27,456 nucleotides of DNA from a virus. Below the pieces are notes generated by a model. That model saw nothing but the letters and a program-made list of their open reading frames with translations. It made no database searches and was not told the origin of the DNA. Position 1 is the stretch's first letter. Every line of letters begins with the position of its first letter. Below, piece by piece: positions 1,166 through 22,211 of the stretch. The stretch covers positions 1 to 27,456 of IMG/VR virus record IMGVR_UViG_3300032073_006528; one strand, 5' to 3'. Position numbers and translations under genes: made by a program.

Positions 1166-1964
1166 CGATTTGTTCGTTATACTGAGCAAGGTCGTAGTCT
1201 TGCTGATAATTATAATGAAAACCTAGGCTATTATCTTTTGAGTGTTCTTTATTTCTTTTTGCTTTGTCTGTAGTAATGTCAATAAAGTAATCATGACCCA
1301 TAAACCTATACTGTAATAAGAACAATGGAGAAGTATGATACTTAATTGCTCCGTACGGTTCAGCAGAATGACAACCATCATTATAACGTATATCAACTGC
1401 GTTAGGATTAAAAACAGCTAACTTGTCTAAGTTACTAACAGGAAAGCCACGTCTCGTATGATCTATAATATTTGTCGATGGTTCTGGTAAACCATCAGCG
1501 ACCATATCATAACCCTTAACCGGGAAGATGGTTGAGTTAATGGTTTTTGCTTCGTGCAAAACATCTGTCAAACCTCGCGGAGTATAGATATATTCATCTA
1601 TATCGACGATAAACACCCAATCATATTTTTTTTGAACTCTCTTCCAATAATGATTACGAAATAACATTAATAGATCTTCTCGATGTTCAGGAAAGTCTAA
1701 TTGTATTAGATCTATCTCACACTTGTCAAAACTCTGTATAATGTCAATACTGCTATCAGTACTACCAGTATCTATAATAGTAATAATATTACTGAAATCA
1801 GAATAATAATCTAGAAAAAATGGTAAAAGCCGTTCTTCGTTGTAACACAACGTCTGTACTAAAATATTTTCCCGCCTTGGGACCCATTTATCAGTATAAA
1901 AGAATTCGTTATCTTCTTTATATACTTCTACAATTTTGTTGTCTACAATACCTCGTCTCTTCAT
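1098..1964 (-). CDS. GT2-family glycosyltransferase
   Basis: The 288-residue product carries classic GT2 hallmarks: VQTLCYNEE (residues 36-44) at the start of the fold, IIDTGSTD (63-70) as the nucleotide-binding loop, and FIVDIDE (118-124) as the DxD metal/nucleotide site. This resembles the Glyco_tranf_2_4 type, soluble enzymes common in capsule and LPS loci. Residues 1-33 precede the fold and are of unknown role. The ATG at 1964 shares one base with the stop of the upstream GT4 gene (TAATG), so it is the last gene of a three-gene minus-strand block (3329-1098). Family assignment is firm; donor and acceptor are unknown. Confidence 0.8.
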   Translation of the reverse strand: MKRRGIVDNKIVEVYKEDNEFFYTDKWVPRRENILVQTLCYNEERLLPFFLDYYSDFSNIITIIDTGSTDSSIDIIQSFDKCEIDLIQLDFPEHREDLLMLFRNHYWKRVQKKYDWVFIVDIDEYIYTPRGLTDVLHEAKTINSTIFPVKGYDMVADGLPEPSTNIIDHTRRGFPVSNLDKLAVFNPNAVDIRYNDGCHSAEPYGAIKYHTSPLFLLQYRFMGHDYFIDITTDKAKRNKEHSKDNSLGFHYNYQQDYDLAQYNEQIASVRDLDEVFARSESSIYSRVV

Positions 1965-2923
1965 TATATGTTAGTTAGTTCTTTATATAGTTTTTTAGAG
2001 TTTTGTTCATTTATGTGTTTAAAAAACGTTTTAACTTTTTCAGGTTTATGATTCTCTAAATGCTTTTTGTAATTTACAATTGCGTCATTTAGTTGCTCGT
2101 AGTCTACTACCCAACCTATGTGATGTGGCCAGTACGACTCTTTGCGCTCATCTAAATGTAGAAACGGATAATCGGAATGATGAGTATGAAATATACAATC
2201 TAAAAACACAATTAATTCCGGGTCTATCCATTCAACAAATACCGGTAGTTTGGTAGCATAAATTAATGCGCCAGTTGACATCCCTTCATATAAGTAATGG
2301 CCCCAGCCTTCACAAATACTAGGACATAAATGTATACTGTGATCGTTGAAATGTAGTTTAATTTCTTCATCAGAAATATACTCTTGTATGAAATTAACGT
2401 TGGAGGTTGGGGCAAGATCAGTTCTTTGACTCTGTAGTAAAGTTAGCTCTAAATTATTATGCTTAAAACACTTTAATACATCTTCGGTATTTTTTTGATA
2501 GCTCTTACCACCTACATGAAGAAATGTTTTAGTTGGTTTAATGCTAGGTAGGTCTTTATCTATTGTACAGAATCCCGTAGTAACAATATTATTGTTGTAA
2601 GGGGATAATAAATGTTTTGCTAAAGTAGACTTAGTAAGGATTTTATCAAAATATTTGAGAAGTGGTAATTTTTCTCGTGATAACCATTCTTCATTAGCAA
2701 TTAAAACATTTATTTTGTTTCTTTCAATCCATGGTATATCAAAATCTTGTATAAAAATTCCAATATCATAATTTGCAAATGTTGGTTGATTATTTTCTAA
2801 ACCAAACTCTAGATATACAATATCAATCTCATAATCCTCATACAATAAATCTTGCACAAGATTGACATCTGTTATAAGACCAACCCCGGTATTAGAAGAA
2901 TAGATGCATGCGGTTTTTTTCAC
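1964..2923 (-). CDS. GT4-type (GT-B fold) glycosyltransferase
   Basis: The 319-residue product shows the C-terminal donor-binding half of a GT-B enzyme: FLHVGGKSYQKN (residues 134-145) opening the second Rossmann domain and CEGWGHYLYEGMSTG (204-218), matching the E-x7-E signature of retaining GT4 enzymes (E205/E213). The N-terminal half is short. The start is GTG at 2923; an in-frame TGA lies immediately upstream and the nearby ATG at 2927 is out of frame, so GTG is the only start that retains the whole N-terminal beta strand (KKTACIYSS). It lies 4 bases after the stop of the preceding gene and overlaps the next by one base. The family is clear, the substrate unknown. Confidence 0.8.
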   Translation of the reverse strand: MKKTACIYSSNTGVGLITDVNLVQDLLYEDYEIDIVYLEFGLENNQPTFANYDIGIFIQDFDIPWIERNKINVLIANEEWLSREKLPLLKYFDKILTKSTLAKHLLSPYNNNIVTTGFCTIDKDLPSIKPTKTFLHVGGKSYQKNTEDVLKCFKHNNLELTLLQSQRTDLAPTSNVNFIQEYISDEEIKLHFNDHSIHLCPSICEGWGHYLYEGMSTGALIYATKLPVFVEWIDPELIVFLDCIFHTHHSDYPFLHLDERKESYWPHHIGWVVDYEQLNDAIVNYKKHLENHKPEKVKTFFKHINEQNSKKLYKELTNI

Positions 2924-2927
2924 TCAT

Positions 2928-3329
2928 CTATCGAAGTAAATTTTCTTTATAACCAAGCATTTGCCATTGATCAGTATCTGGTTCCCAGTATACAACAATA
3001 CCAATCGGTAGCTCAGCAGTATCCACAAACTCATCATCAACAATACCTTTTTTCATCTTAGACGATTCAACAAGAAAGACCTTTTCTTTAAAATACACAG
3101 GTCTAGTCTTTCTTTTGTATTTGGTTTCGTATGCGCTCTTGTCTGCGGCTTTAGTCCAGTCCCACGTTAACGGATTCCAGAATATAGTTAAGTTCTCTTT
3201 TACTTTTGCTTGGATGGTCTTAGTACCTAAAAAAGTAATCTCTTCAACATCCTTCTGATTAGGCTTATATTGTACACCATTGAAGAAGATCTCTTTGATC
3301 TCAGGTTTAGCGGCTTGTATACTTGGCAT
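2928..3329 (-). CDS. Conserved-looking protein of unknown function
   Basis: I do not recognise this protein. I choose the ATG at 3329 (MPSIQAAKPEI), giving 133 residues; the longer frame to 3368 would cross the divergent promoter region and the start of the oppositely transcribed radical SAM gene. The product is soluble, rich in Lys, Glu and aromatic residues, with motifs TIFWNPLTWDW and GIVVYWEPDTDQWQMLGY suggesting a small all-beta domain. The C-terminal 'KGIVDDEFVDTAEL' is faintly like the N-terminus of the GT2 gene two genes downstream ('RRGIVDNKIVEV'), which may be chance. It is the first gene of the 3329-1098 minus-strand block and presumably shares its role in glycan work. Confidence 0.6.
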   Translation of the reverse strand: MPSIQAAKPEIKEIFFNGVQYKPNQKDVEEITFLGTKTIQAKVKENLTIFWNPLTWDWTKAADKSAYETKYKRKTRPVYFKEKVFLVESSKMKKGIVDDEFVDTAELPIGIVVYWEPDTDQWQMLGYKENLLR

Positions 3330-3334
3330 AACTC

Positions 3335-3348
3335 TATAATTAATTATA
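3335..3348. promoter_or_regulatory. Perfect 14-base palindrome with back-to-back TATAAT, divergent promoter candidate
   Basis: TATAATTAATTATA is its own reverse complement and holds a TATAAT on each strand, between the minus-strand gene starting at 3329 and the plus-strand gene starting at 3350. It could serve as a pair of -10 elements or as a binding site. On the plus strand only 9 bases separate TATAAT from the ATG. No good -35 is visible on either side, so a late-type or activator-dependent promoter is as likely as a sigma70 promoter. Confidence 0.4.
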
Positions 3349-3349
3349 C

Positions 3350-4408
3350 ATGGATAAAGAACTATCAACTAAGTTTTGCGAACATCCTTGGACCTTTCTA
3401 GAAATACAAGAAAAGGGGTTATATAACTGTTGTCCGCGATGGGTAAATCATAACCGTATAGGAGATTTAACTCCAGATTTAGATTTCTACGAAGAATGGA
3501 ATAGTAAAAGAAGTAAAGCATTCCGACGCTCTATACTTGACGGTTCGTTTAGTATGTGTAATTCAGAAGAATGTCCTAAAATACAAAACGGCACTCTACC
3601 GACAAGGCAAGATGTGCTAGATGGTAAGTATGGAGATCAAATGAAATTTATTTTGGAGTTTGAAATGGACGTCGCACAACCTCCTAACACAATTAATCTA
3701 TGCTACGATAAATCTTGCAACTTAAAATGCCCTAGTTGTCGAAAAAACCTAATACAATATGGAGAAAAAAACGAACCAGACAAATATAAACAAACTTTAA
3801 TGATTAATAAGAGGTTGTTGAGAATGATTCACAGCAAACCTCATAAAGTAGAACTTAATATTACGGGGTCAGGAGACCCGTTTGGTTCTCCTTCGTTTTT
3901 TGATCTAATGAGAAAAATAGATCTTAAAAAGAACCCTGAAATAAGCATATGCTTACAAACAAACGGTGTTCTATTTGACGAGAAACGTTGGGATCGTTTA
4001 AAAAACATACATAAAATCACAGAACATATTAGCGCTATAATAAGTTTAGACGGTGGTATGAAAGATCATTATGATAAAGTAAGAGTAGGGGGTGATTGGA
4101 ATAAATTAATGAGAAATCTACACTTCATACAACAGCTCGGTCTAAAAAGAGTCCGATTAGATATGTGTGTACAAAAAAACAATTATAAAAGTATACCAGA
4201 GTTTATTCAAATAGCTCAAGCACATGATTTTGAATCATATACATCAAGAATTTTTAACTGGGGAACGTTTGATGACAAGAATTATAACTTTCACAACATT
4301 TTTGACTCTAAACACCCTGAGCATGTTGAGTTTTTGAAGGTACTTAACCAAGATTACCATTGGCACAAGCATGACTGGGGTAATTTGACAGATTTTATGA
4401 CTGATTAA
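3350..4408 (+). CDS. Radical SAM protein with N-terminal SPASM-like cysteine domain
   Basis: The 352-residue product has the 4Fe-4S/SAM signature C-x3-C-x2-C at C123, C127 and C130 (CNLKCPSC), followed by a glycine-rich NITGSGDPFGSP (170-181) at the SAM-amine-binding position and ICLQTNG-type beta strands of the TIM barrel. Before the barrel lies a cysteine-rich segment (C10, C27, C28, C70, C75) with the text of a SPASM/twitch domain: C-x-HPW, then CCPRW, RIGDL, EEWNS, FR and a final C-x4-C. That domain normally sits after the barrel. It probably binds an auxiliary cluster. The substrate is unknown; neighbours suggest sugar, lipid-linked or peptide chemistry. The stop overlaps the next ATG by one base (TAATG). 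Confidence 0.8.
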   Translation: MDKELSTKFCEHPWTFLEIQEKGLYNCCPRWVNHNRIGDLTPDLDFYEEWNSKRSKAFRRSILDGSFSMCNSEECPKIQNGTLPTRQDVLDGKYGDQMKFILEFEMDVAQPPNTINLCYDKSCNLKCPSCRKNLIQYGEKNEPDKYKQTLMINKRLLRMIHSKPHKVELNITGSGDPFGSPSFFDLMRKIDLKKNPEISICLQTNGVLFDEKRWDRLKNIHKITEHISAIISLDGGMKDHYDKVRVGGDWNKLMRNLHFIQQLGLKRVRLDMCVQKNNYKSIPEFIQIAQAHDFESYTSRIFNWGTFDDKNYNFHNIFDSKHPEHVEFLKVLNQDYHWHKHDWGNLTDFMTD

Positions 4409-5535
4409 TGAAACTAGCAGTACTATTATACGGACAACCCAGATTCTGGGACTTAAGTTACGAAAGTATCCTACAAGAAACAACTTTCGAAGGTTGTACT
4501 ACCGATTACTACTTTCATTTTTGGGATAGAGTAGCATACGGTCATCTAGACCACGAATCTGGTTATAATTTAACAGACGAAATAAAAGAAAATATCGTCT
4601 CTACATATAAACCTAAAAAATACAAATTTACTAACTATGAAATTTTAGAGGAAGTAGAAAAAACAATTTTTGACATAGTTGAACCGTATAAAGAAAAGCT
4701 CAAATTCTTTTACAACGAAAAAACTAAAGCTATGCAAGAGCTCAATCTGGCGAAAACAGTTTTTGAAGTATGCGAGCCACGGCATTTAAGATATTATCTA
4801 GGACAATTTGTATCTTTACAAGAAGGTGCACAATTAATTAATGAAGAATATGATTATATTTTTAGAGTTAGAACTGATATGATGTTTGTAACTCCTGACA
4901 TGTACGATGAACCAAGATTTTATAAAACAGATAAGCAAATGTTTTATAATCGTCTATTTAAAGGAGAAAAAGGGGTGTTTTGCAAATACGGAGACTTGCA
5001 AATATGGCAAGGAGCGAAAGATCCAAATGGAGATAGATCAGATCAACAACCAGAAAAAAGAAAAGTGTATGATTCATTTACTAATTTGAATGAAGAATTA
5101 TACGCTAAAAAAAGAGATGGTAAATGTGATTTATACAAACCTAAAAAACAGTATTTACATATGAAAGACTGGCATCTTGTAGGTAGCGGTCCTGAAATGT
5201 TACTTAGTATAAAAAATTATATTAATACTATTATTCACATGGTCGAAAAATCAAAACACTTTCTTAAAAGAGATAAAATTGATATAAACTGGGCAGCAGG
5301 GGAAATTGTATGTGGGGAAGTGTTAGGATTAAATAAAATAAACGCAGCAGAATTAGGTCATGACCTATTAGATAGAATGACCATACCTAATAGAATGTTA
5401 AAAATCGCAAATAAAGACACAAAGCAATGTATTTTAGATAGACCTCACGTTAGAGTATTAGCGGATTCTGATTTATCTTTAAAAGAACAATATAAAAAAA
5501 TTGTAAATATTTCACTCAATAAGAAGCATCTTTAA
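4408..5535 (+). CDS. Putative glycosyltransferase, GQPRF/HFWD/RTD family, copy 1
   Basis: The 375-residue protein is one of four related proteins in this window sharing a common order of motifs: an N-terminal strand with G-x-PR (GQPRF, residues 9-13), an HFWD box (37-40), a 'YKPK' beta-strand element (67-70) and a central strand ending in RxRTD (RVRTD, 153-157) that resembles a GT-A metal site. Copy 3 (9589-10692) has the first two motifs at the same residue numbers. It has no signal peptide or membrane helix. It is coupled to the radical SAM gene (one-base overlap), and its last 24 bases overlap the convergent P-loop gene. I infer glycosyltransferase function from context and the RTD motif; the fold is not proven. 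Confidence 0.6.
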   Translation: MKLAVLLYGQPRFWDLSYESILQETTFEGCTTDYYFHFWDRVAYGHLDHESGYNLTDEIKENIVSTYKPKKYKFTNYEILEEVEKTIFDIVEPYKEKLKFFYNEKTKAMQELNLAKTVFEVCEPRHLRYYLGQFVSLQEGAQLINEEYDYIFRVRTDMMFVTPDMYDEPRFYKTDKQMFYNRLFKGEKGVFCKYGDLQIWQGAKDPNGDRSDQQPEKRKVYDSFTNLNEELYAKKRDGKCDLYKPKKQYLHMKDWHLVGSGPEMLLSIKNYINTIIHMVEKSKHFLKRDKIDINWAAGEIVCGEVLGLNKINAAELGHDLLDRMTIPNRMLKIANKDTKQCILDRPHVRVLADSDLSLKEQYKKIVNISLNKKHL

Positions 5536-5997
5536 AAAATCTGCTTCATCTAAGATTGGAAACTCATCTCTATTGTCGACAAGTATATATGGAATATCAT
5601 ATTTTTTAAGATTTTTTATCCACGTAGTATATTTGTTGTAAAAGTTACTTGTAGTAATGAGGGATTTGTCTCCACCTCGCGTTTTAACTCTTTCTTGCCA
5701 TATATTGTATGGTGCTCCTAAAAGAATTGCTATTTTTTTAATAACATACTGATTTGAATACCAATCAGTAGGCCAATATTGTGGGTTACTTGTTGTAACT
5801 AAGTTATGATGATGTAAGTGTGGTTTAGTCCAGACAGAAATAGGGACATTTTTAAACTCTTTAGAATTAGGACCATAATGATCGAAAAATCCATGCTTTT
5901 TACAAAAGTGAGTTTTACCTATACATGTTGGTCCACATATTAATACCCACGGAGCATCTGGGTGATATATATTACCTGTAGCTTGAGGTATTTCCAT
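5512..5997 (-). CDS. P-loop NTPase/kinase-like protein
   Basis: The 161-residue product has an N-terminal Walker A motif, VLICGPTCIGKTH (residues 18-30), after a 17-residue lead. The small size and a later 'NIWQERVKTRGG' segment (charged lid-like stretch) fit a small-molecule or nucleotide kinase of the P-loop kinase superfamily. No clear Walker B aspartate pair is visible. It is transcribed alone, divergent from the carbamoyltransferase gene and convergent with (24-base overlap) the copy-1 glycosyltransferase gene. A role in phosphorylating a sugar or nucleoside precursor is possible but is inference from neighbours only. Confidence 0.6.
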   Translation of the reverse strand: MEIPQATGNIYHPDAPWVLICGPTCIGKTHFCKKHGFFDHYGPNSKEFKNVPISVWTKPHLHHHNLVTTSNPQYWPTDWYSNQYVIKKIAILLGAPYNIWQERVKTRGGDKSLITTSNFYNKYTTWIKNLKKYDIPYILVDNRDEFPILDEADFLKMLLIE

Positions 5998-6014
5998 AAC
6001 TTAATAAGTAACTT

Positions 6015-6039
6015 TAAATATCAATCTTAATAATATTTA
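6015..6039. repeat. Inverted repeat in divergent intergenic region
   Basis: TAAATAT (6015-6021) and ATATTTA (6033-6039) form 7-base arms around an 11-base loop, between the minus-strand P-loop gene (start 5997) and the plus-strand carbamoyltransferase gene (start 6043). Each arm presents a TAAATA reading outward, reminiscent of a T4-type late -10 (TATAAATA) on each strand. In such A+T-rich DNA this can arise by chance. Confidence 0.25.
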
Positions 6040-6042
6040 TGT

Positions 6043-7839
6043 ATGAATAGTTTGAAAGAAGAAGAATTATTAACTATATACACTATAGGTCATGATCCAA
6101 ATGTAACATTCGTTAATAAAAATAATGAAATAACAACATTAGAGTTAGATAGATGGGCTAATACAAAGTATAATAGAACTCCTACTGTAGTGTACTCAGA
6201 CGAGTTATTATATAGCGAGTTCGGTTTATATAATTTTATAAAGTTTGCTAGCGAAGAGTGTAAAGATAAAAATAACATAAAAAAGATTGTAGTTGCTACG
6301 AAAGCAGAAAAGGTTTGTTTTGTAAACAATGAAATAAGACAAGATTTACATTTAAAACGAAAATATAGTGAAGCTGATAATGTAAAACAAACATATTGCC
6401 CCGTAAAGATAGAAAAATATAATTCCTTTTTAAAAGAGATATTCCCTAACGCAAAAGTTTTTTATAAAGTAGATCATCATTACGCTCATGCAGCAAGTAG
6501 CTATTACCAAGCACCAGAAGAATTTGAAAAATGCTTAATATTTTCATACGACGGAGCGGGAGATACCTTATTAAGCAGTAGAAAAGAGTGTACCACAGTA
6601 AAAGAATTAAAAAAATTAAGTAATACATCATATAACACAGGTTTTCTCTTTTGTGCAAATAGTTTTAAAAATAAATTTGGTATAAAATACATAAAAACGT
6701 TTAGGCCACAACGATTCGGTGGGCTGTATACTTTGTTTAGTACTGTGTTACGAATTAAATTCCCAGATGGACGAGCTAGACCAGTAGCAAAAAAGAGATT
6801 AGCGGGGCCTGGTAAGTTTATGGGGTATACTGCGTACGGGGAAAGAGTACGAGACTTAATAGATACATATAAAGACTGGTGGCAAAAAAAGATGAACGGA
6901 GTTCCTATAAAAGAAAAATGGGAAAATACAAACCCTGGTGGTATAAAAGATACTATATCTAAATACAAACCTGAAGAAGCCCCTAATGTAGCGGCTAGTG
7001 CGCAAGCTGCTTTTGAAGAAATAGTAGAAGAGTTAATATTTCCTGTAGTAAAAAAGAAAAAATTACCACTTATTATTACAGGTGGTTGTGCTCTCAACGT
7101 ATTAGTTAATCAAAGATTAGCTGAGAAAATGAAATCAGAGTTAGATCTAGATCTATTCGTAAATTACAATCCAAGCGATACAGGATTAAGTCAGGGTATG
7201 TTCTTTTTAGAGTTTCCAAAGCATAGAGAGCCATTAACATACAATGGAATTCGAATGATTGATAGTCTAGAGCCATATATAAAAAAATACAACATTATCA
7301 ACAAATCTAATATAAAAGATGTAGTCAAAGAAATAAAATTAGGTAAAATTATAGGCTGTGCTCACGAAAATTCAGAATTAGGGCCACGTGCATTAGGTAA
7401 TAGGAGTATAATATGCAAACCAGACCCTGAAATGAAAGATATACTTAACGCAAAAATAAAATTTAGAGAATGGTTTCGACCGTTTGGACCGGTTTGTAGA
7501 GTAGAAGATAAGGACAAATATTTTGATAATGTGTTTGAGAGTCCTTATATGAGTTTTGCACCTACTGTAAAGCCAGAATACAGAGAAAAGCTTAAATCTA
7601 TAACACACATAGACGGGACAGCGAGACTACAAACTGTAACTCGTAACCAAAATTCCTTTTTTTACGATGTACTGTGTGAAATGGAAGAAATAGGTATGAT
7701 ACCTGTATTACTAAATACTTCTTTTAACATAAAAGGTAAACCTATCTTAACAAGATACTCATCAGCATTCGAAGCTTTAGAAACAACTGAATTAGATTGT
7801 TTATTTTTAGATAGAAAATACCTTATACATAAAATTTAA
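6043..7839 (+). CDS. NodU/CmcH-family O-carbamoyltransferase
   Basis: The 598-residue protein is a full-length member of the family that transfers a carbamoyl group from carbamoyl phosphate (via carbamoyl-AMP) to a hydroxyl, usually of a sugar or antibiotic. Visible landmarks are HHYAHAASSYY (145-155), SYDGAGD (168-174), GPGKFMGYTAYG (255-266) and TGGCALN (346-352) of the Kae1-like metal/ATP domain, then SELGPRALGNRSI (444-456), WFRPFGP (477-483) and LLNTSFN (556-562) of the C-terminal Sua5/YrdC-related part. All diagnostic motifs are intact, so it is probably active. It leads a three-gene plus-strand block with two glycosyltransferase-like genes, which points to carbamoylation of a sugar. 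Confidence 0.93.
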   Translation: MNSLKEEELLTIYTIGHDPNVTFVNKNNEITTLELDRWANTKYNRTPTVVYSDELLYSEFGLYNFIKFASEECKDKNNIKKIVVATKAEKVCFVNNEIRQDLHLKRKYSEADNVKQTYCPVKIEKYNSFLKEIFPNAKVFYKVDHHYAHAASSYYQAPEEFEKCLIFSYDGAGDTLLSSRKECTTVKELKKLSNTSYNTGFLFCANSFKNKFGIKYIKTFRPQRFGGLYTLFSTVLRIKFPDGRARPVAKKRLAGPGKFMGYTAYGERVRDLIDTYKDWWQKKMNGVPIKEKWENTNPGGIKDTISKYKPEEAPNVAASAQAAFEEIVEELIFPVVKKKKLPLIITGGCALNVLVNQRLAEKMKSELDLDLFVNYNPSDTGLSQGMFFLEFPKHREPLTYNGIRMIDSLEPYIKKYNIINKSNIKDVVKEIKLGKIIGCAHENSELGPRALGNRSIICKPDPEMKDILNAKIKFREWFRPFGPVCRVEDKDKYFDNVFESPYMSFAPTVKPEYREKLKSITHIDGTARLQTVTRNQNSFFYDVLCEMEEIGMIPVLLNTSFNIKGKPILTRYSSAFEALETTELDCLFLDRKYLIHKI

Positions 7840-12660: not shown

Positions 12661-13611
12661 ATGTCGGGCCCGAACGAAATTTCAGAAATATACCATAATA
12701 TATGTATCGGTGTAAAGGCCGGGCAATTAATTTTTTCTTCAATAAACGAAGATAATCGACGAGTAAGTAATACAGATTTTAAAAATACCTTTTTTCCTGA
12801 TGGTACATTTTACGAAGTAGATAAAATGGTACTTATCCATAATCCATGGACTCAGAATTTTCAGCATTTTTTGGATGAAACGATACCACTATGTATTGAG
12901 TCTAAAGACGAACCTGAGGTGTATGTAACTGTATGGCCGAGTTTCGGAGATGATATAATAAATTTCTTAAAAATAAATAATATCAAAAAAATAGAGGAAA
13001 ATACATGCTTTCGTATTAAAAAATTAATACGAAAAAAAATTAGATATGTTGATTTTAGATTAAATGAAGAGTGTAATGTAAACAAGCCTTTAGGGTTTGT
13101 AAGAAAAAAAGTCACCCAATACCTACAAAACAATAACAGAAAAATCCTATTCATAAAAAGAGATGTAAAAAAACGATCTTGTGAGAATATTAATCAATTA
13201 ATTGATAATCTTGAGATTAAATTTAATATTGATGTAATTGAGAATTTTTCGAGTTTAACTATAAAAGAAAAAATAATAATTTTAAGTTACTATGATACTA
13301 TTATTAGTATGTACGGCGCGACAAGCGCAAATGTATTATTTAAAAATAGCGGAAAATGGATAATTTTAAGTAATCCGTGGAGTGTAAATGATACGTTTAT
13401 AAAAAATTTAAACCCAGATCTTGAAATACATAATATAGATAATATATCAAAATATTTAGACTCAAATAGCATACATACTCGCTCAGGAGAAGTTACTGAA
13501 GATAAAGAATTTGTTATTGATATAGATCGATGTCTTAGTCAAATTAATCAGATATTAAATCAACCACCAACACCACCTGTATCGAAAGCTAAAGAAAAAT
13601 TATCTACATAA
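12661..13611 (+). CDS. GT61-like glycosyltransferase
   Basis: The 316-residue product carries signatures of the GT61/DUF563 family (capsular polysaccharide and EOGT-like enzymes): QNFQHFLDETIP (residues 65-76), corresponding to the usual 'NYYHWLLDxLPR' box, KILFIKRD (161-168), the conserved beta strand before the second domain, and SMYGATSANVLFKNSG (216-231), the 'GAHGAGLTNLLFxxPG' box. The His of the last box is replaced by Tyr/Gly text. It is a single-gene plus-strand unit whose 3' end overlaps the HAD/nucleotidyltransferase gene by 52 bases. The Pro-rich C-terminus (QPPTPPVSK) probably lies outside the fold. Confidence 0.72.
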   Translation: MSGPNEISEIYHNICIGVKAGQLIFSSINEDNRRVSNTDFKNTFFPDGTFYEVDKMVLIHNPWTQNFQHFLDETIPLCIESKDEPEVYVTVWPSFGDDIINFLKINNIKKIEENTCFRIKKLIRKKIRYVDFRLNEECNVNKPLGFVRKKVTQYLQNNNRKILFIKRDVKKRSCENINQLIDNLEIKFNIDVIENFSSLTIKEKIIILSYYDTIISMYGATSANVLFKNSGKWIILSNPWSVNDTFIKNLNPDLEIHNIDNISKYLDSNSIHTRSGEVTEDKEFVIDIDRCLSQINQILNQPPTPPVSKAKEKLST

Positions 13612-14969
13612 TATTTTAAATCCTCAGGAGTTCCTAAACCCCACATTCGAGGAACATCAAATACTTTTATATTTTTTCCATCTTCTATAGCTTCATTAAA
13701 TACAGGACATACATAAAACTCATTATTTGTTCTAATATTTCTTTCAATCATTTGCTCTGCATACTTTACATAATCAGAACCTTTAGACCAATAATATATA
13801 CCGACAGTGGCGGTGTCTGAAATAGGGTTTTTCTCTGCAACTTCTGTAACGAATCCATTATCACCTAACTTAGCGTAACTCCATTTAGGGTGAGTTGATT
13901 TAAAAGTAAGTATACCACCATCAACATTATCTCCTACCATCGAATACATAAACTCATTACTATCCCATTCAACAAATTGATCAGAATTTGCCATAATTAA
14001 CGGCTTATTATTGTTAATATATTCTTTTGCTAATAAAGTAGTACATGCAGCTCCTTCAGTAATACCTTCAACCTGTACAATTGTACAGTTTGGTGCTATA
14101 TTTTCAAGTACAGTTTGTAAGTGATATTGTTCATAGTGAGATTTTTGTACAATAAAAACATAATTAGCTTCAATGTTTATATTATCTACAACTGTTTGTA
14201 TCATTGGTTTACCATTAACATCAATTAATGGTTTAGGAAAAGTGTAGCCCGCCTTTTCAAACCGTGAACCAGCACCCGCCATTGGAATTAATACGTTCAT
14301 ATCTCCACCTCTCCATTTTGGTTTAATCTCTTCCATAGTTTTATCTGTGTTTTTTATAAAATTAACAATATAATCAAATGTAACTTCCTCTGGTCCAGTT
14401 ACAGGACATAGATGTGATCCACTTCTTATTGCTCCTTTTCTACCTGTATGAGAATCTTCGATAATAACTGTTTCATCAGGATTAGTCTTTGTATGTATCA
14501 TGCATCTCATGTACATCTCTGCGTTAGGCTTTGCGAGAAATACATCTTCATTAGCTAGTACATAATCACAATACTTAAGTACACCAACCTTATCAAGAGA
14601 TGTTAATACAGTTTGCCGTATAGCATTAGAAGCAATAGAAATTTTTAATCCATTGTCTTTTAAAAAGGTAAATAACTGCTGTAGTTGTAAATTTTCTGGT
14701 ATAGATTGAAGACGTTCTCTTGTAAATTTTTGTTTTAAACTCCAAATCTCATCATACTTTTCAACCGGTAACTGTTTTACCTCTGTTAATAACTTAAGTT
14801 TTGTAGTTGTTGTTTTACCATCATAAGAGGATAGATGTTCTTCTCTTGAAATTACATATGATTCATTAATTGAACGAAGCGCATCATTAAGAGCATAATA
14901 ATGTAAGTCTCTACTATCTATTAAGACTCCGTCTAAATCAAAAATGACGTGTTTTATATAATTCAACAT
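13560..14969 (-). CDS. HAD-phosphatase / sugar nucleotidyltransferase fusion
   Basis: The 469-residue protein has two domains. Residues 1 to about 210 form a HAD hydrolase of the beta-phosphoglucomutase type: FDLDGVLIDS (10-19, nucleophile D11 and acid/base D13), SNA (114-116), K147 and ED (171-172). Residues about 224-469 form a sugar-phosphate nucleotidyltransferase: NVLIPMAGAGSRF (225-237), FPKPLIDVNGKPMI (244-257) and MANSDQ (326-331). Together they could trim or interconvert a sugar phosphate and activate it as an NDP-sugar. A strong internal ribosome-binding site precedes Met224, so the second domain may also be made alone. It is the last gene of the 12-gene operon; its start overlaps the GDPD-like gene by 32 bases. 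Confidence 0.85.
   Translation of the reverse strand: MLNYIKHVIFDLDGVLIDSRDLHYYALNDALRSINESYVISREEHLSSYDGKTTTTKLKLLTEVKQLPVEKYDEIWSLKQKFTRERLQSIPENLQLQQLFTFLKDNGLKISIASNAIRQTVLTSLDKVGVLKYCDYVLANEDVFLAKPNAEMYMRCMIHTKTNPDETVIIEDSHTGRKGAIRSGSHLCPVTGPEEVTFDYIVNFIKNTDKTMEEIKPKWRGGDMNVLIPMAGAGSRFEKAGYTFPKPLIDVNGKPMIQTVVDNINIEANYVFIVQKSHYEQYHLQTVLENIAPNCTIVQVEGITEGAACTTLLAKEYINNNKPLIMANSDQFVEWDSNEFMYSMVGDNVDGGILTFKSTHPKWSYAKLGDNGFVTEVAEKNPISDTATVGIYYWSKGSDYVKYAEQMIERNIRTNNEFYVCPVFNEAIEDGKNIKVFDVPRMWGLGTPEDLKYYVDNFSLAFDTGGVGG
14298..14314 (-). promoter_or_regulatory. Internal ribosome-binding site and start within the HAD/NTase fusion
   Basis: On the minus strand GGAGAGG (14314-14308) lies 7 bases before an in-frame ATG (14300-14298), which is codon 224 of the fusion and the first residue of the nucleotidyltransferase domain. 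Such a near-perfect Shine-Dalgarno sequence is rare in this window, where most genes rely on ATGA coupling. It suggests either a second, shorter product or the relic start of a once separate gene. Confidence 0.5.
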
Positions 14970-17770: not shown

Positions 17771-18591
17771 ATACAAACTCTCTCCCCTATAGTATTTTTA
17801 TTATTAAACCAATAATTGGTTAAATAATCTCTACTATATTTCCAACCCTCCATTCCTTTCATATAAGGATTAAGAGAAGAACCAATGTCTAAATAAATGT
17901 TATTTTTATTTGTTTTATAACATGCATGAGTAGCGACGTTTGATAAAGAGGCAGCAGAGAATAAAAATAATGAATTATTAATATTATTTTTTTGTATATA
18001 CTCTGGTAATACATTAATAAGATCAATATTATTAACCATGCAATTAGTACCTACTCTAAATTCTTGTTGAATGTTATTATAAAACGGTAAATCCTTTAAA
18101 TCTGCAATTTCATTAACTATAATATAAACATCAAAATTAGAAAATAAAGGTACTACGTTTTCTATATAAAATTTATAGTTAGAATTTAAAAATAAGTTTG
18201 ACCATGTTAAGTTTTGATATATTCCTCGAATAGCATTTTGTTGTTTTTCTTTTGTTTTAAATAAAGCCCCGAACTGCCAGAGGTAATCTTCGCGAGTATT
18301 ACAGCACCTACAATTTATACCCTTATAAAATGAACTATCATCGTAAAGAAAAGCATCTATTAATAATTTTCTAAAATCTTTATGTTCTTCTGGTAAAAAC
18401 TCTTTTTGTTCCTCCTTAGTATATATACCATGACCTTTAATCGCACCAGTAACATAAAAATCCTTTCCTAATATAACTTCTTTATTTTGTAAAACAAACA
18501 ATTCTCCGTCTGAAAATCTTGTAAAAGCAAAATTAGTTTTATTAACTAATAGTTCTCTAAATTTTTTTATTTCATCTGCAAAGGTTTTCAT
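17764..18591 (-). CDS. GT-D-like (DUF1792-like) putative glycosyltransferase
   Basis: The 275-residue protein has FAFTRFSDGE near the N-terminus (residues 21-30), close to the R-x-GDGE signature of DUF1792/GT-D glycosyltransferases, where the acidic DGE binds metal. Near the C-terminus FSAASLSNVATHACY (211-225) and YLDIGSSLNPY (233-243) match the 'G...K.LA..L......DIG..LD' region of the same family. A cysteine cluster (CRCC, 94-97) is unusual. GT-D is a rare fold, so this assignment rests on two motifs only. It is joined to the metallo-beta-lactamase-fold gene by an ATGA overlap. Confidence 0.58.
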   Translation of the reverse strand: MKTFADEIKKFRELLVNKTNFAFTRFSDGELFVLQNKEVILGKDFYVTGAIKGHGIYTKEEQKEFLPEEHKDFRKLLIDAFLYDDSSFYKGINCRCCNTREDYLWQFGALFKTKEKQQNAIRGIYQNLTWSNLFLNSNYKFYIENVVPLFSNFDVYIIVNEIADLKDLPFYNNIQQEFRVGTNCMVNNIDLINVLPEYIQKNNINNSLFLFSAASLSNVATHACYKTNKNNIYLDIGSSLNPYMKGMEGWKYSRDYLTNYWFNNKNTIGERVCIW

Positions 18592-19799
18592 CTTTTATAT
18601 AATTGATCTCTAAAAATTAAAATATTATTCCAAATTTGTTCATTTACTTTCTCAAAACAACCTGTAATGTTTAAAGTATCAGCACCCCACGGGGTTTTTA
18701 AAAATGAAATAAACTCTTCACTTGAAGTAATACCTGCTATTTCATGTTTTTTTGGTATATAAGAGTCTGAAATTTTTAAAATTTCATTTTTAAAATCTAA
18801 ATAGGCACTAATGAATGGGGTGTTTTGTTTTCTTGGATGATCATAAAATACAAAATAACCACTCGGTTTATAATTACTAGGTATTTGAGATAAAATTTGT
18901 TTATTTTCAGTAAACATATACTGAGCCGCGGCTTGTATATCCTCTATTGAATATTTTTTAGGTATTGAATCTATAACTCTTTCCTTTGCGTATACGTTAT
19001 CCCATTTATCAACATTATTATTAGTCGTATCTATACTATCATTATAAAATAATATTTGTATGTCTTTATCTCTTTCTAATAAATGAGATGGTTTTACAAC
19101 ATAGTCATTTAAATAAGAATTATAATACTTGCAAAAATAACAAAAAGAAGCAAACGGTATTGACACTTTAGGTTTAAATTTTGATTTATAATATTCAAAC
19201 CGCTCAATATGAAAATTATGTCCTTTGTTTGTTAAATCTTTTTTATTAGATTTATTAGCGTAGTAACCTGCTAAACTAAACTGCATCCACCAATAATCAA
19301 TATTAGGGAACATAACATTTAAATCAGCAGCTTCTAAATCAGTTAAATATGCATCATTTTGATTAAGTAAAACTTTATCGTTTAATTCAAACACTACAGC
19401 AGCATCATGACCAGTTGGAAAGGTACAAAGAGATAAATTATTATTAATAAATGTCTTTACTTTAGATTGTAAGTAAGAAAAATTAAAGCCAAGTTTTTTG
19501 AGAGCAGTTTGAACATTATCGTTATTCCTATACGGTAAATATATAGTAATATCATTATCTGGTAAGTACTCTTTAATTTGTTTTAGCGTTCCCCAATGTA
19601 AATGATCTGGGTGTTCGTGACTAATAACAATTTTACTTAACTTTTCTATACCTTCAATTTCACTAATTTTAGTATCTCTGAGCAAAGACCATGAGTTATT
19701 AAATATTCGACCACTATACCACGGGTCCATTAATAATAAGTCATTGTCCCATTCAATTGAAAACGAAGCATGATTTATAAATTTTATTTTACAATTCAT
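18588..19799 (-). CDS. Metallo-beta-lactamase-fold hydrolase, UlaG/CMAH-like
   Basis: The 403-residue protein starts with INHASFSIEW (residues 8-17) and LLLMDPWYSG (21-30), then HEHPDH (61-66, the HxHxDH metal motif), TGHDA (129-133, third-site His) and NQNDA (146-150, bridging Asp). This full metal set shows an MBL-fold enzyme. The 'HASFxIEW...LLxDPWYSG' opening and the length resemble UlaG-type lactonases and the catalytic part of CMP-N-acetylneuraminate hydroxylase-like proteins, without a Rieske domain. In a locus with a NeuC/WecB-like epimerase and a CMP-sugar synthetase, action on a CMP- or UDP-sugar is a reasonable inference. The start overlaps the epimerase gene by 11 bases. Confidence 0.78.
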   Translation of the reverse strand: MNCKIKFINHASFSIEWDNDLLLMDPWYSGRIFNNSWSLLRDTKISEIEGIEKLSKIVISHEHPDHLHWGTLKQIKEYLPDNDITIYLPYRNNDNVQTALKKLGFNFSYLQSKVKTFINNNLSLCTFPTGHDAAVVFELNDKVLLNQNDAYLTDLEAADLNVMFPNIDYWWMQFSLAGYYANKSNKKDLTNKGHNFHIERFEYYKSKFKPKVSIPFASFCYFCKYYNSYLNDYVVKPSHLLERDKDIQILFYNDSIDTTNNNVDKWDNVYAKERVIDSIPKKYSIEDIQAAAQYMFTENKQILSQIPSNYKPSGYFVFYDHPRKQNTPFISAYLDFKNEILKISDSYIPKKHEIAGITSSEEFISFLKTPWGADTLNITGCFEKVNEQIWNNILIFRDQLYKR

Positions 19800-20793
19800 T
19801 TAGTAATATATCGCACATTTTTTGACTAGAATTACCGTCTCCATACGGACAAGTCCCCATACAAGTAGGGTCGTTATTAATTATATCAACTAAATCTTTT
19901 AAATCAACCGGTTTTTTACACATATGTAAGTGACCGGTAAATATACCTTCTGGTCTTTCGGTTGTCTTACGACATACAATAACTTTTTTATTAAAAAAAG
20001 ATCCTTCTTCTTGAAGACCACCACTATCTGTAATAATAAACTTTGACTTAGTTATCATATCTATCATTACATCATAGCTAACTGGTTCAATACAATGTAC
20101 ATCAGTTAATATATCAATATGTTTTTTAACGTTAGGGTTTGAATGTACAGGTAGAACAAACTTTAAATTAGAGTGTTGCTTAGCTACCTTATTTAATTCT
20201 GTAAACCACTTGTCAATAATTGAGTGGTTTTCTCTTCTATGTAAAGTAACAACAACAGTATTACCATACTCACATTTGTTTTTGGGTTTTTTTAAATTAT
20301 CTAATACTGTATTACCAACTGTAAATATTTTGCCTAAAACATTTTCGTTTTTTAAATTTTGCGCACTTTCCTCTGTTGGACAAAAGTTAATATCTGCAAT
20401 TCTAGATATCATTTGTCTATATGCTTCCTCGGGGTAAGGGTTTTGTAAGTCATTCGACCGTAAACCAGCTTCTAAGTGTATTGTTTTTATGTTATTGTTA
20501 AAAGCTGCAAGAGTAACAGCATATGCGGACGCTGTATCTCCTTGAGTAAGGATGTAGTCCCAGTTAGACCACGGCAAGTCTGCATCTAATATACTTGCAA
20601 TAATATTGCTAAGTCTATTGTTGTTACTATTATTAATAGTTATCTCCCATTCGAAATGATGAGATGTAAGAAGATCAGTATGTTGACCTGTAAATAGACA
20701 ATCATACTCAATATTATTTTGTTGAAAAGCTGTAATAAGTGGTTTAATTTTTATCCACTCAGGTCTCGTACCAAAGCTTAATAATATTTTCAT
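19789..20793 (-). CDS. wecB: UDP-N-acetylglucosamine 2-epimerase
   Basis: The 334-residue product (ATG at 20793; an upstream TTG is disregarded) has the complete family signature: FGTRPEWIK (residues 7-15), TQGDT (83-87), HLEAGLRS (106-113), PEEAYRQ (121-127), LHRREN (184-189), TDSGGLQEEG (255-264) and ERPEG (279-283). It should interconvert UDP-GlcNAc and UDP-ManNAc (WecB) or hydrolyse to ManNAc (NeuC type); the motifs do not distinguish these. It supplies a precursor for ManNAc-containing or nonulosonic-acid glycans. It is slightly short of the usual 370 or so residues. Its start lies at the end of a duplicated gene-end remnant (20790-20836) that provides an ATGA-type junction. Confidence 0.9.
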   Translation of the reverse strand: MKILLSFGTRPEWIKIKPLITAFQQNNIEYDCLFTGQHTDLLTSHHFEWEITINNSNNNRLSNIIASILDADLPWSNWDYILTQGDTASAYAVTLAAFNNNIKTIHLEAGLRSNDLQNPYPEEAYRQMISRIADINFCPTEESAQNLKNENVLGKIFTVGNTVLDNLKKPKNKCEYGNTVVVTLHRRENHSIIDKWFTELNKVAKQHSNLKFVLPVHSNPNVKKHIDILTDVHCIEPVSYDVMIDMITKSKFIITDSGGLQEEGSFFNKKVIVCRKTTERPEGIFTGHLHMCKKPVDLKDLVDIINNDPTCMGTCPYGDGNSSQKMCDILLNEL

Positions 20794-20836
20794 GCTTCTC
20801 AAAAATTATATCCTTTTTCTACTAATTCATTAAAAT
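20790..20836 (-). pseudogene. Remnant of a GT2 gene 3' end (47-base duplicate)
   Basis: This stretch matches 21471-21517 without gaps at 42 of 47 bases. In the other copy it encodes the last residues of the GT2 gene (FNELVEKKYKFLEA and stop); here the same frame reads FNELVEKGYNF, then a TGA, then EA and stop. The remnant keeps the ATGA junction, which now precedes wecB exactly as the intact copy precedes the methyltransferase gene. It fits a scar left when a gene was inserted into, or lost from, an older GT2-wecB junction. Confidence 0.75.
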
Positions 20837-20838
20837 TC

Positions 20839-21474
20839 TCATTTAATATAACCGTGTATACCTTTGTTAAGAGATGTATATTGTGATCCGTGAGATGACA
20901 GATCAGGTCCGTGAAAATCTAAATCCCAGTTACTTAATTGATCAATCCACCATTGCTTTGTTCTACAATTATGAAGAGGTTTATTTATATGGATAGTTTC
21001 AGACCAAAACTCTTGAAAACTTAATATGCTGTTGTTAAAGTTTTCATTTATCCACTTGAGGGTAGGGATGATATATTTATCATCTAAGTGAATAAACACA
21101 GAGCAGGTATTTATAAATACATTTTTAGTAGGAAAATTAATAACCTCAAACGCGTCTTCTGAATAACCGTGTACCCATTTAATTTTTTTTCCTTTATATA
21201 ATTCTCGACATAAATCTATAGCTTTTTTTGATGGTTCAATACCATAAACTTCATCGAAATATTCTTTTAGTTTATTACACATCCAACCACCACCACTACC
21301 TATATCAATTGCTGTGTTTCTAATATCCGGGTATTTTTCTAATAATGTTTTAACTTTTAACTCTTCGTTATTAAATGCCTCTTCCTCGTGTTGTTTATTA
21401 TGATCTATCCAAAAGTCTAAACTATGTTTTAAATACATAGTATTATCATGATCTGTTTTACTTATATTCTTCAT
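20839..21474 (-). CDS. Class I SAM-dependent methyltransferase
   Basis: The 211-residue protein has motif I AIDIGSGGGW (residues 55-64), an acidic motif II end GIEPS (78-82) and a post-motif region VFINTCSVFIHLDD, the standard SAM-binding Rossmann arrangement. The substrate is unknown; its place between a GT2 gene and the epimerase gene suggests O- or N-methylation of a sugar. The start is joined to the GT2 stop by ATGA (21471-21474). Its stop (20839-20841) runs directly into the GT2-end remnant, so this gene may be a recently inserted cassette. It shows little similarity by eye to the truncated methyltransferase at 1-399. Confidence 0.82.
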   Translation of the reverse strand: MKNISKTDHDNTMYLKHSLDFWIDHNKQHEEEAFNNEELKVKTLLEKYPDIRNTAIDIGSGGGWMCNKLKEYFDEVYGIEPSKKAIDLCRELYKGKKIKWVHGYSEDAFEVINFPTKNVFINTCSVFIHLDDKYIIPTLKWINENFNNSILSFQEFWSETIHINKPLHNCRTKQWWIDQLSNWDLDFHGPDLSSHGSQYTSLNKGIHGYIK

Positions 21475-22211
21475 GCTTCTAAAAACTTATATTTCTTTTC
21501 TACTAATTCATTAAAATATTTTTGCATTTGATTTAATCCTGTTGAGGTATGAGATATAGCTGCTGAGTCAGTACCTACCTTCCAACCTATTTTGTGATCA
21601 CTACCCCATAATCTAGTATTATTAGCTGGATGAGGGGGTACATATGTCCCTAAATTCATAAACTTTTGTAATGTATAACTAAAGTGCATATCTTCCCCAG
21701 CTATAGTATAATTATCTTTAGGTAGCTCCCTCAAATAAGCAGTAAGATACTCCTTTTTAAAGAACCAGTTATGACCTACTAAATCTACTTGTGTTACTTT
21801 GTCATTAGGAGCTGTCCATCCTACATCATAATGGTCTCTATAATTATTTTTATCTCTAAACACTACCCCTCTCGAACCATATAATCCATCTTTTTTTGTA
21901 ATATGATTCATACAATTCTCCAACCACATATCTCCAGGAAACGTATCATCATCTATAACACAAATATACTCTGTTGTACAATTTAAAGCATAAAAAAAAC
22001 GAGACCAAACACCTAAGTTTTTATTACAACGAGCAATAGTAGCATGTTTTTCAATAGAGGGATGTATTGTTTGATCAACATCTGCGCTATTTACCCATAT
22101 AAAAATGTCTTTTGGTTTAATGGTTTGTTTAACAATATTATTCCATTGTGCGTTTAATAAATTTAAACGTTTATATCCGTTAAATATAACTGTAATATTT
22201 TCTTTAGACAT
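21471..22211 (-). CDS. GT2-like glycosyltransferase with DDD motif
   Basis: The 246-residue product has ITVIFNGYKRL (residues 6-16) at the first strand, CVIDDDTFPG (84-93) with the DDD metal site, and AGEDMHFSY (171-179), where the ED pair matches the GT2 catalytic-base region. The layout also recalls GT64-like (exostosin C-terminal) enzymes. It has no membrane segment. The C-terminal residues are encoded by the sequence duplicated at 20790-20836. It overlaps the upstream GT4 gene by 8 bases and the methyltransferase gene by 4 bases. Family placement is good; substrate is unknown. Confidence 0.78.
   Translation of the reverse strand: MSKENITVIFNGYKRLNLLNAQWNNIVKQTIKPKDIFIWVNSADVDQTIHPSIEKHATIARCNKNLGVWSRFFYALNCTTEYICVIDDDTFPGDMWLENCMNHITKKDGLYGSRGVVFRDKNNYRDHYDVGWTAPNDKVTQVDLVGHNWFFKKEYLTAYLRELPKDNYTIAGEDMHFSYTLQKFMNLGTYVPPHPANNTRLWGSDHKIGWKVGTDSAAISHTSTGLNQMQKYFNELVEKKYKFLEA

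Follow-up and report, generated by a model that had tools for sequence, protein, structure and literature searches.

A duplicated glycosyltransferase gene tail as the probable footprint of a one-gene acquisition in a viral sugar-gene operon

Why should the end of a glycosyltransferase gene recur, one gene further downstream, directly in front of wecB? The question is raised by an operon on the minus strand of the window, by which we mean the entire 27,456-nt stretch of DNA, from a marine virus of bacteria, analysed here. The genes follow one another as a GT4-like gene (23037-22204), a GT2-family glycosyltransferase gene (22211-21471), a SAM-dependent methyltransferase gene (MT, 21474-20839), wecB (20793-19789) and an MBL-fold gene (19799-18588). 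GT2 is intact (246 aa; PF00535, E=3.4e-9), as is MT (211 aa; PF08241, E=2.9e-7), the substrate of which, judged from the neighbouring genes only, is probably a sugar or a sugar precursor. The wecB gene encodes a UDP-GlcNAc 2-epimerase of 334 aa (PF02350, E=9e-71).

The repeat pair and the relatives of the locus

As the preliminary description had reported, positions 20790-20836 and 21471-21517 match without gaps at 42 of 47 positions. Nowhere else in the window do two 47-mers reach 35 matches, and the best pair in eight Markov-1 simulated windows of the same first-order composition attained at most 32-33 of 47. A third 'copy' returned by a repeat finder at 19067 matches at only 30 of 47 positions and was discarded as noise. 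Copy 1 (21471-21517, minus strand) encodes the real C-terminus of GT2 (...YFNELVEKKYKFLEA), with its TGA stop overlapping the MT start as ATGA. Copy 2 (20790-20836, minus strand), hereafter the scar, falls in the interval from the MT stop (20839-20841) to the wecB ATG (20793), and its GT2 reading frame is closed early by a TGA (FNELVEKGYNF*). Thus, the distinction drawn earlier between a true gene end and a broken remnant is borne out. The accompanying claim that both copies end at an ATGA junction applies fully to copy 1, where the overlap with MT is real, whereas the early TGA makes the terminal ATGA of the scar only vestigial.

Scans of viral contigs yielded two close relatives of the locus. 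The first (IMGVR_UViG_3300025151_008033; L002/L039, hereafter L002) has the order phoH, GT4, GT2 (91%), wecB (87%) and MBL-fold gene (80%). Its GT2 (4761-5501) overlaps wecB (5498-6502) as ATGA and MT is absent, making this an empty site. The second (IMGVR_UViG_3300010883_019738; L037/L003, hereafter L037) has the order phoH, GT4, GT2 (88%), MT (87%) and a different wecB (59%), which we call wecB'; it carries ATGA overlaps at both MT junctions and no scar. The preliminary description had proposed the insertion of an MT cassette and had suggested looking for relatives with GT2 followed directly by wecB or with a GT2-MT-GT2-wecB arrangement. The existence of both an empty site and an MT-bearing GT2-MT-wecB' locus agrees with this proposal, and the former order is that of L002; the latter was not found among the contigs compared. 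Direct succession of GT2 and wecB occurs in about 20 other contigs, and among the contigs compared only L037 and the window have MT between the two genes.

Other rearrangements are apparent at related loci. MT is 87% identical at the amino acid level to that of L037 and 62% to that of another contig, L038, in which the MT relative precedes GT2 and wecB rather than lying between them (L038:6001-8341), indicating that the MT family has occupied at least two positions. In L057 the order is GT2-MBL-wecB, and together these gene orders indicate that the neighbourhood has been shuffled gene by gene. The MBL-fold gene itself is another single gene shuffled at this locus: in the window (18588-19799) and in L002 it lies 3' of wecB, a place where L037 lacks it, and in L057 (4823-5998) it separates GT2 from wecB. 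A second module boundary is seen around 18587, where the nucleotide similarity between the window and L002 breaks off sharply where the MBL-fold gene ends (the blastn match ends at 18587); the gene beyond is only 32% identical to L002.

Among 50,697 phage records, a nucleotide search gave no match to the window and a protein search no match to GT2, and MT found only matches of 33-34%, in P-SSM2-type phages and one marine single-cell virus. A profile search with MT returned L037 and L038 only from viral contigs and no confirmed relative from bacterial and archaeal genomes. Pattern scans of viral contigs for a second scarred genome returned only the two known relatives. Self-comparison of the fetched loci, judged from coordinates, gave no comparable gene-tail duplication, the matches being tandem arrays, paralogues or weak AT-rich matches.

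A composite junction between MT and wecB

The two relatives account for different sides of the junction behind MT. Past the MT codons the window reads AAATGAGAATTTTAATGAATTAGTAGAAAAAGG. The L037 counterpart is AAATGAGAGTTTTAATAGGAATAGG, in which ATGAGAGTTTTAATAGG marks the overlap of the MT stop with the wecB' start, and GT2 of L002 ends in AAATATTTTAATGAATTAGTAGAAAAAGG. Bases 1-32 of an 81-base query across the seam (20860-20780) match the L037 MT end and wecB' start at 94%, while bases 25-81 match the L002 GT2 end and wecB start at 95%. The two half-matches share 8 nt, ATTTTAAT (20836-20829, minus strand), a microhomology that defines the right seam. L037 has a G for the first A of this octamer, leaving 7 nt (TTTTAAT) strictly in common with L037; at the local base composition, a randomly placed junction would show a match of at least 7 nt with a probability of about 9e-4. 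The seam thereby joins the wecB' start to the GT2 tail, sequences that are non-homologous apart from this short match.

Outside the microhomology, only 2-3 nt past the MT stop are diagnostic of wecB'. The sequence behind the MT stop has the character of a wecB start (MRVLI in L037, a relic MRIL in the window), and the GT2 starts in the relatives (MSKE, MITV, MEGIT and MKKKV) are all unlike MRIL. Given this dissimilarity and the match of the seam to the L037 wecB' start, this sequence appears to stem from the start of a displaced wecB' and not from a second GT2. The relic (ATGAGAATTTTAAT; 20829-20842, minus strand), which the preliminary description had overlooked, overlaps the MT stop as ATGA and also the start of the scar. 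The fusion also created a predicted six-codon minicistron, MRILMN* (20822-20842, minus strand), that still overlaps the MT stop and may act as a ribosome relay to wecB.

The scar matches the GT2 end of L002 at 45 of 47 positions and that of L037 at 36, the corresponding values for copy 1 being 44 and 38. It carries two private changes absent from both parents. The by-eye idea that through these changes wecB gained GAG as a ribosome-binding site or TATAAT as a -10 box was not counted: the window genes have no clear ribosome-binding motif with which to compare the GAG, and a promoter scan found no promoter at the candidate TATAAT.

At the left junction, the GT2 3' end and the sequence ATGAAGA fit L002, and MT from ATGAA onwards fits L037. 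One candidate for the left seam is the ATGAA common to both coupling sites; the other is a homologous crossover at a more upstream point in GT2. The earlier view that the translational coupling site itself was the recombination seam is therefore plausible on the left. It does not describe the right seam: the 8-nt microhomology lies slightly beyond the MT/wecB' ATGA and meets the GT2 sequence 47 nt before the end of GT2's own ATGA.

Direction of the exchange

The scar probably records the acquisition of a single gene through illegitimate recombination, the partners being two related phages. The recipient would have resembled L002, with an ATGA overlap between GT2 and wecB, and the donor would have been an L037-like phage with the arrangement GT2-MT-wecB', the donor-type context that L037 documents, in which the MT stop overlaps the wecB' start. 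MT would have been copied or joined in from its start codon, the left seam probably lying at the shared ATGAA, and the transfer would have run past the MT stop into the first 14 nt of wecB'. There, ATTTTAAT, common to the wecB' start and the GT2 tail, would have allowed re-entry 47 nt before the GT2 end, a join that the composite junction documents. Since this re-entry lies upstream of the exit point, the GT2 stop, the GT2 tail would have been duplicated. The duplicated tail would have become a spacer before the resident wecB and acquired its two private changes, including the one that produced a stop. As to the molecular route, including the enzyme system and the path of the strands, we infer that the likely event was a template switch or, in the course of recombination-dependent replication, the annealing of a free 3' end. 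The wecB start, which overlaps GT2 by ATGA in L002, now lies 45 nt past the MT stop. Both neighbours stayed intact, so the price of the added gene would have been a 45-nt spacer in place of the earlier translational coupling of wecB.

This order of events rests on parsimony and on a comparison set of one empty-site and one donor-type relative close enough to be informative. The backbone argues for an L002-like recipient. The phoH of the window is 91% identical to L002 versus 66-67% on the L037 side, and wecB is 87% versus 59% identical, its first 120 bp reaching 98% with L002. The MBL-fold gene is 80% identical to L002 and absent after wecB' in L037, and the GT2 3' end likewise sides with L002. 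Once MT and one repeat copy are removed, the window aligns with L002 over 819 bases without a gap. Within this region, the tract that leads from the 3' end of GT2 through the scar and into wecB matches L002 at 379 of 412 positions (92%) versus about 83% elsewhere (p 8e-8, a value that assumes independent sites and a tract whose limits were picked by eye). This low-divergence tract spans both sides of MT, so that MT breaks up sequence that L002 has in one piece.

It is possible that the direction was the opposite, although we consider this unlikely. In that case the ancestor of the window already had GT2-MT-wecB', and an L002-like segment comprising the GT2 tail, wecB and the MBL-fold gene replaced wecB' through a crossover at ATTTTAAT, making MT the resident and wecB the newcomer. 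Such a replacement requires just one illegitimate junction and predicts exactly the observed seam, and the middle of GT2 is indeed L037-like (21860-22100, minus strand; 97% versus 88% amino acid identity; p about 0.001 and 0.00015 in a 3SEQ-like shuffle). However, phoH and the GT2 3' end, both upstream of MT, are L002-like too, and the low-divergence tract upstream of MT would call for a second exchange. The continuity of this tract with L002 leads us to prefer insertion of MT into an L002-like recipient, without amounting to proof. The L037-like patch, which sits ahead of the L002-like 3' end, indicates that the locus has exchanged DNA more than once.

Quite improbable, in our view, is that the scarred arrangement is the older one and that L002 lost MT by recombination between the 47-bp direct repeats. 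Direct repeats at a distance of 681 bp lend themselves to deletion, and their loop-out would yield exactly the clean GT2-wecB junction of L002. However, GT2-wecB without MT is the common order in the contigs noted above, and L002 agrees with copy 2 at the three left differing sites and with copy 1 at the two right ones, the reverse of what a simple loop-out of the present copies would leave, a weak argument as the changes may be later.

It is very improbable that the sequence is an artefact of assembly or amplification, a chimera of two phages present in the same metagenome. The window comes from just one virus record, nothing nearly identical to it occurs in the searched collections, and its seam does join two relatives, but the private changes of the scar occur in neither parent, the flanking genes are all intact, and k-mer assemblers need more than 8 bp of overlap to make a join. 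The collapse of a tandem GT2 paralogue (GT2-MT-GT2'-wecB to GT2-MT-remnant-wecB), which the preliminary description had offered as an alternative, is just as hard to credit: L038 shows that MT followed by GT2 exists, but its GT2 is merely 44% identical while the scar is nearly that of L002, and the MRIL start matches the L037 MT/wecB' junction.

Relation to known systems and neighbouring observations

The one-gene acquisition proposed here is ordinary phage mosaicism in unusually legible form and not a new kind of element; gene exchange of such kind is already known in viruses of bacteria. In the promoter-stem-loop (PeSL) cassettes of T4-type phages, short repeats also lie at gene junctions beside shuffled genes, but the repeat of the window is the tail of a coding gene. 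A PeSL-type regulatory cassette was rejected, since the seam has no terminator-like stem-loop and its promoter-like sites are not above those of shuffles. The direct repeats flanking the insert resemble the target-site duplication of a transposon, but foreign wecB' sequence stands at one end of the insert only. Insertion of a transposon or homing endonuclease is likewise not supported: the insert consists of MT alone, with no transposase or homing endonuclease gene.

A closer parallel is the illegitimate, microhomology-driven recombination described in mosaic tailed phages, those related to T4 included (PMC2993671, PMC2327257), and set against homeologous exchange in one of these accounts (PMC2327257). 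There, as here, related phage genomes are joined non-homologously with no signatures of mobile elements. Unlike those cases, the window has both parental junctions, with the right seam resolved to an 8-nt overlap, and keeps the duplicated gene tail and the relic of the displaced neighbour. Phage mosaicism is usually visible only as abrupt module changes; with empty site, donor-type context and product all in hand, the gain of a single gene can be read within 8 bases, together with its likely polarity and its by-product, the duplicated tail. This provides a searchable signature, namely a short copy of the 3' end of gene A directly before gene C in A-B-C operons. A bolder and rather improbable extension is that ATGA plus the next codons at overlapping junctions are recurrent microhomology ports by which single whole genes move with precision between the surface-sugar operons of marine phages. 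If so, short duplicated gene tails would be a readable record of gene movement; with no second example among the loci compared, a general mechanism is not yet shown.

Pelagimyophages, in the portion of their description available to us, have a variable host-recognition region with many glycosyltransferase genes (PMC7029224), and the window shares with these marine phages a variable, gene-dense array encoding enzymes for surface sugars. That portion concerns gene content and not seams, and the window may differ from pelagimyophages in host and phage group.

Sugar-gene operons of two marine viral contigs that carry relatives of the locus, L043 and L044, contain a CRISPR-like array about 0.9-2.6 kb upstream of GT2-wecB, beside a TnpB/Cas12f-like protein (L044:1188-2676 and 2909-4411; L043:77-1300 and 1669-3171). 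The arrays comprise 19-23 copies of a 36-nt repeat, GTTTCGCACTGG...GAGGACTGCAACAC, separated by unique spacers of about 30 nt. The middle of the repeat alternates between variants such as GTACAT, GTGAAG and GTACTA, an unusual mixture. The 500-aa protein following the array is matched by PADLOC models Cas12u4 (E 3e-52) and Cas12f (E 1e-48) and by the Pfam families OrfB_IS605 and Cas12f1-like_TNB. In the window itself, a single ORF (13560-14969) fuses a HAD-type hydrolase domain (PF13419) to a nucleotidyltransferase domain (PF00483); the two domains could catalyse adjacent steps in the activation of nucleotide sugars.
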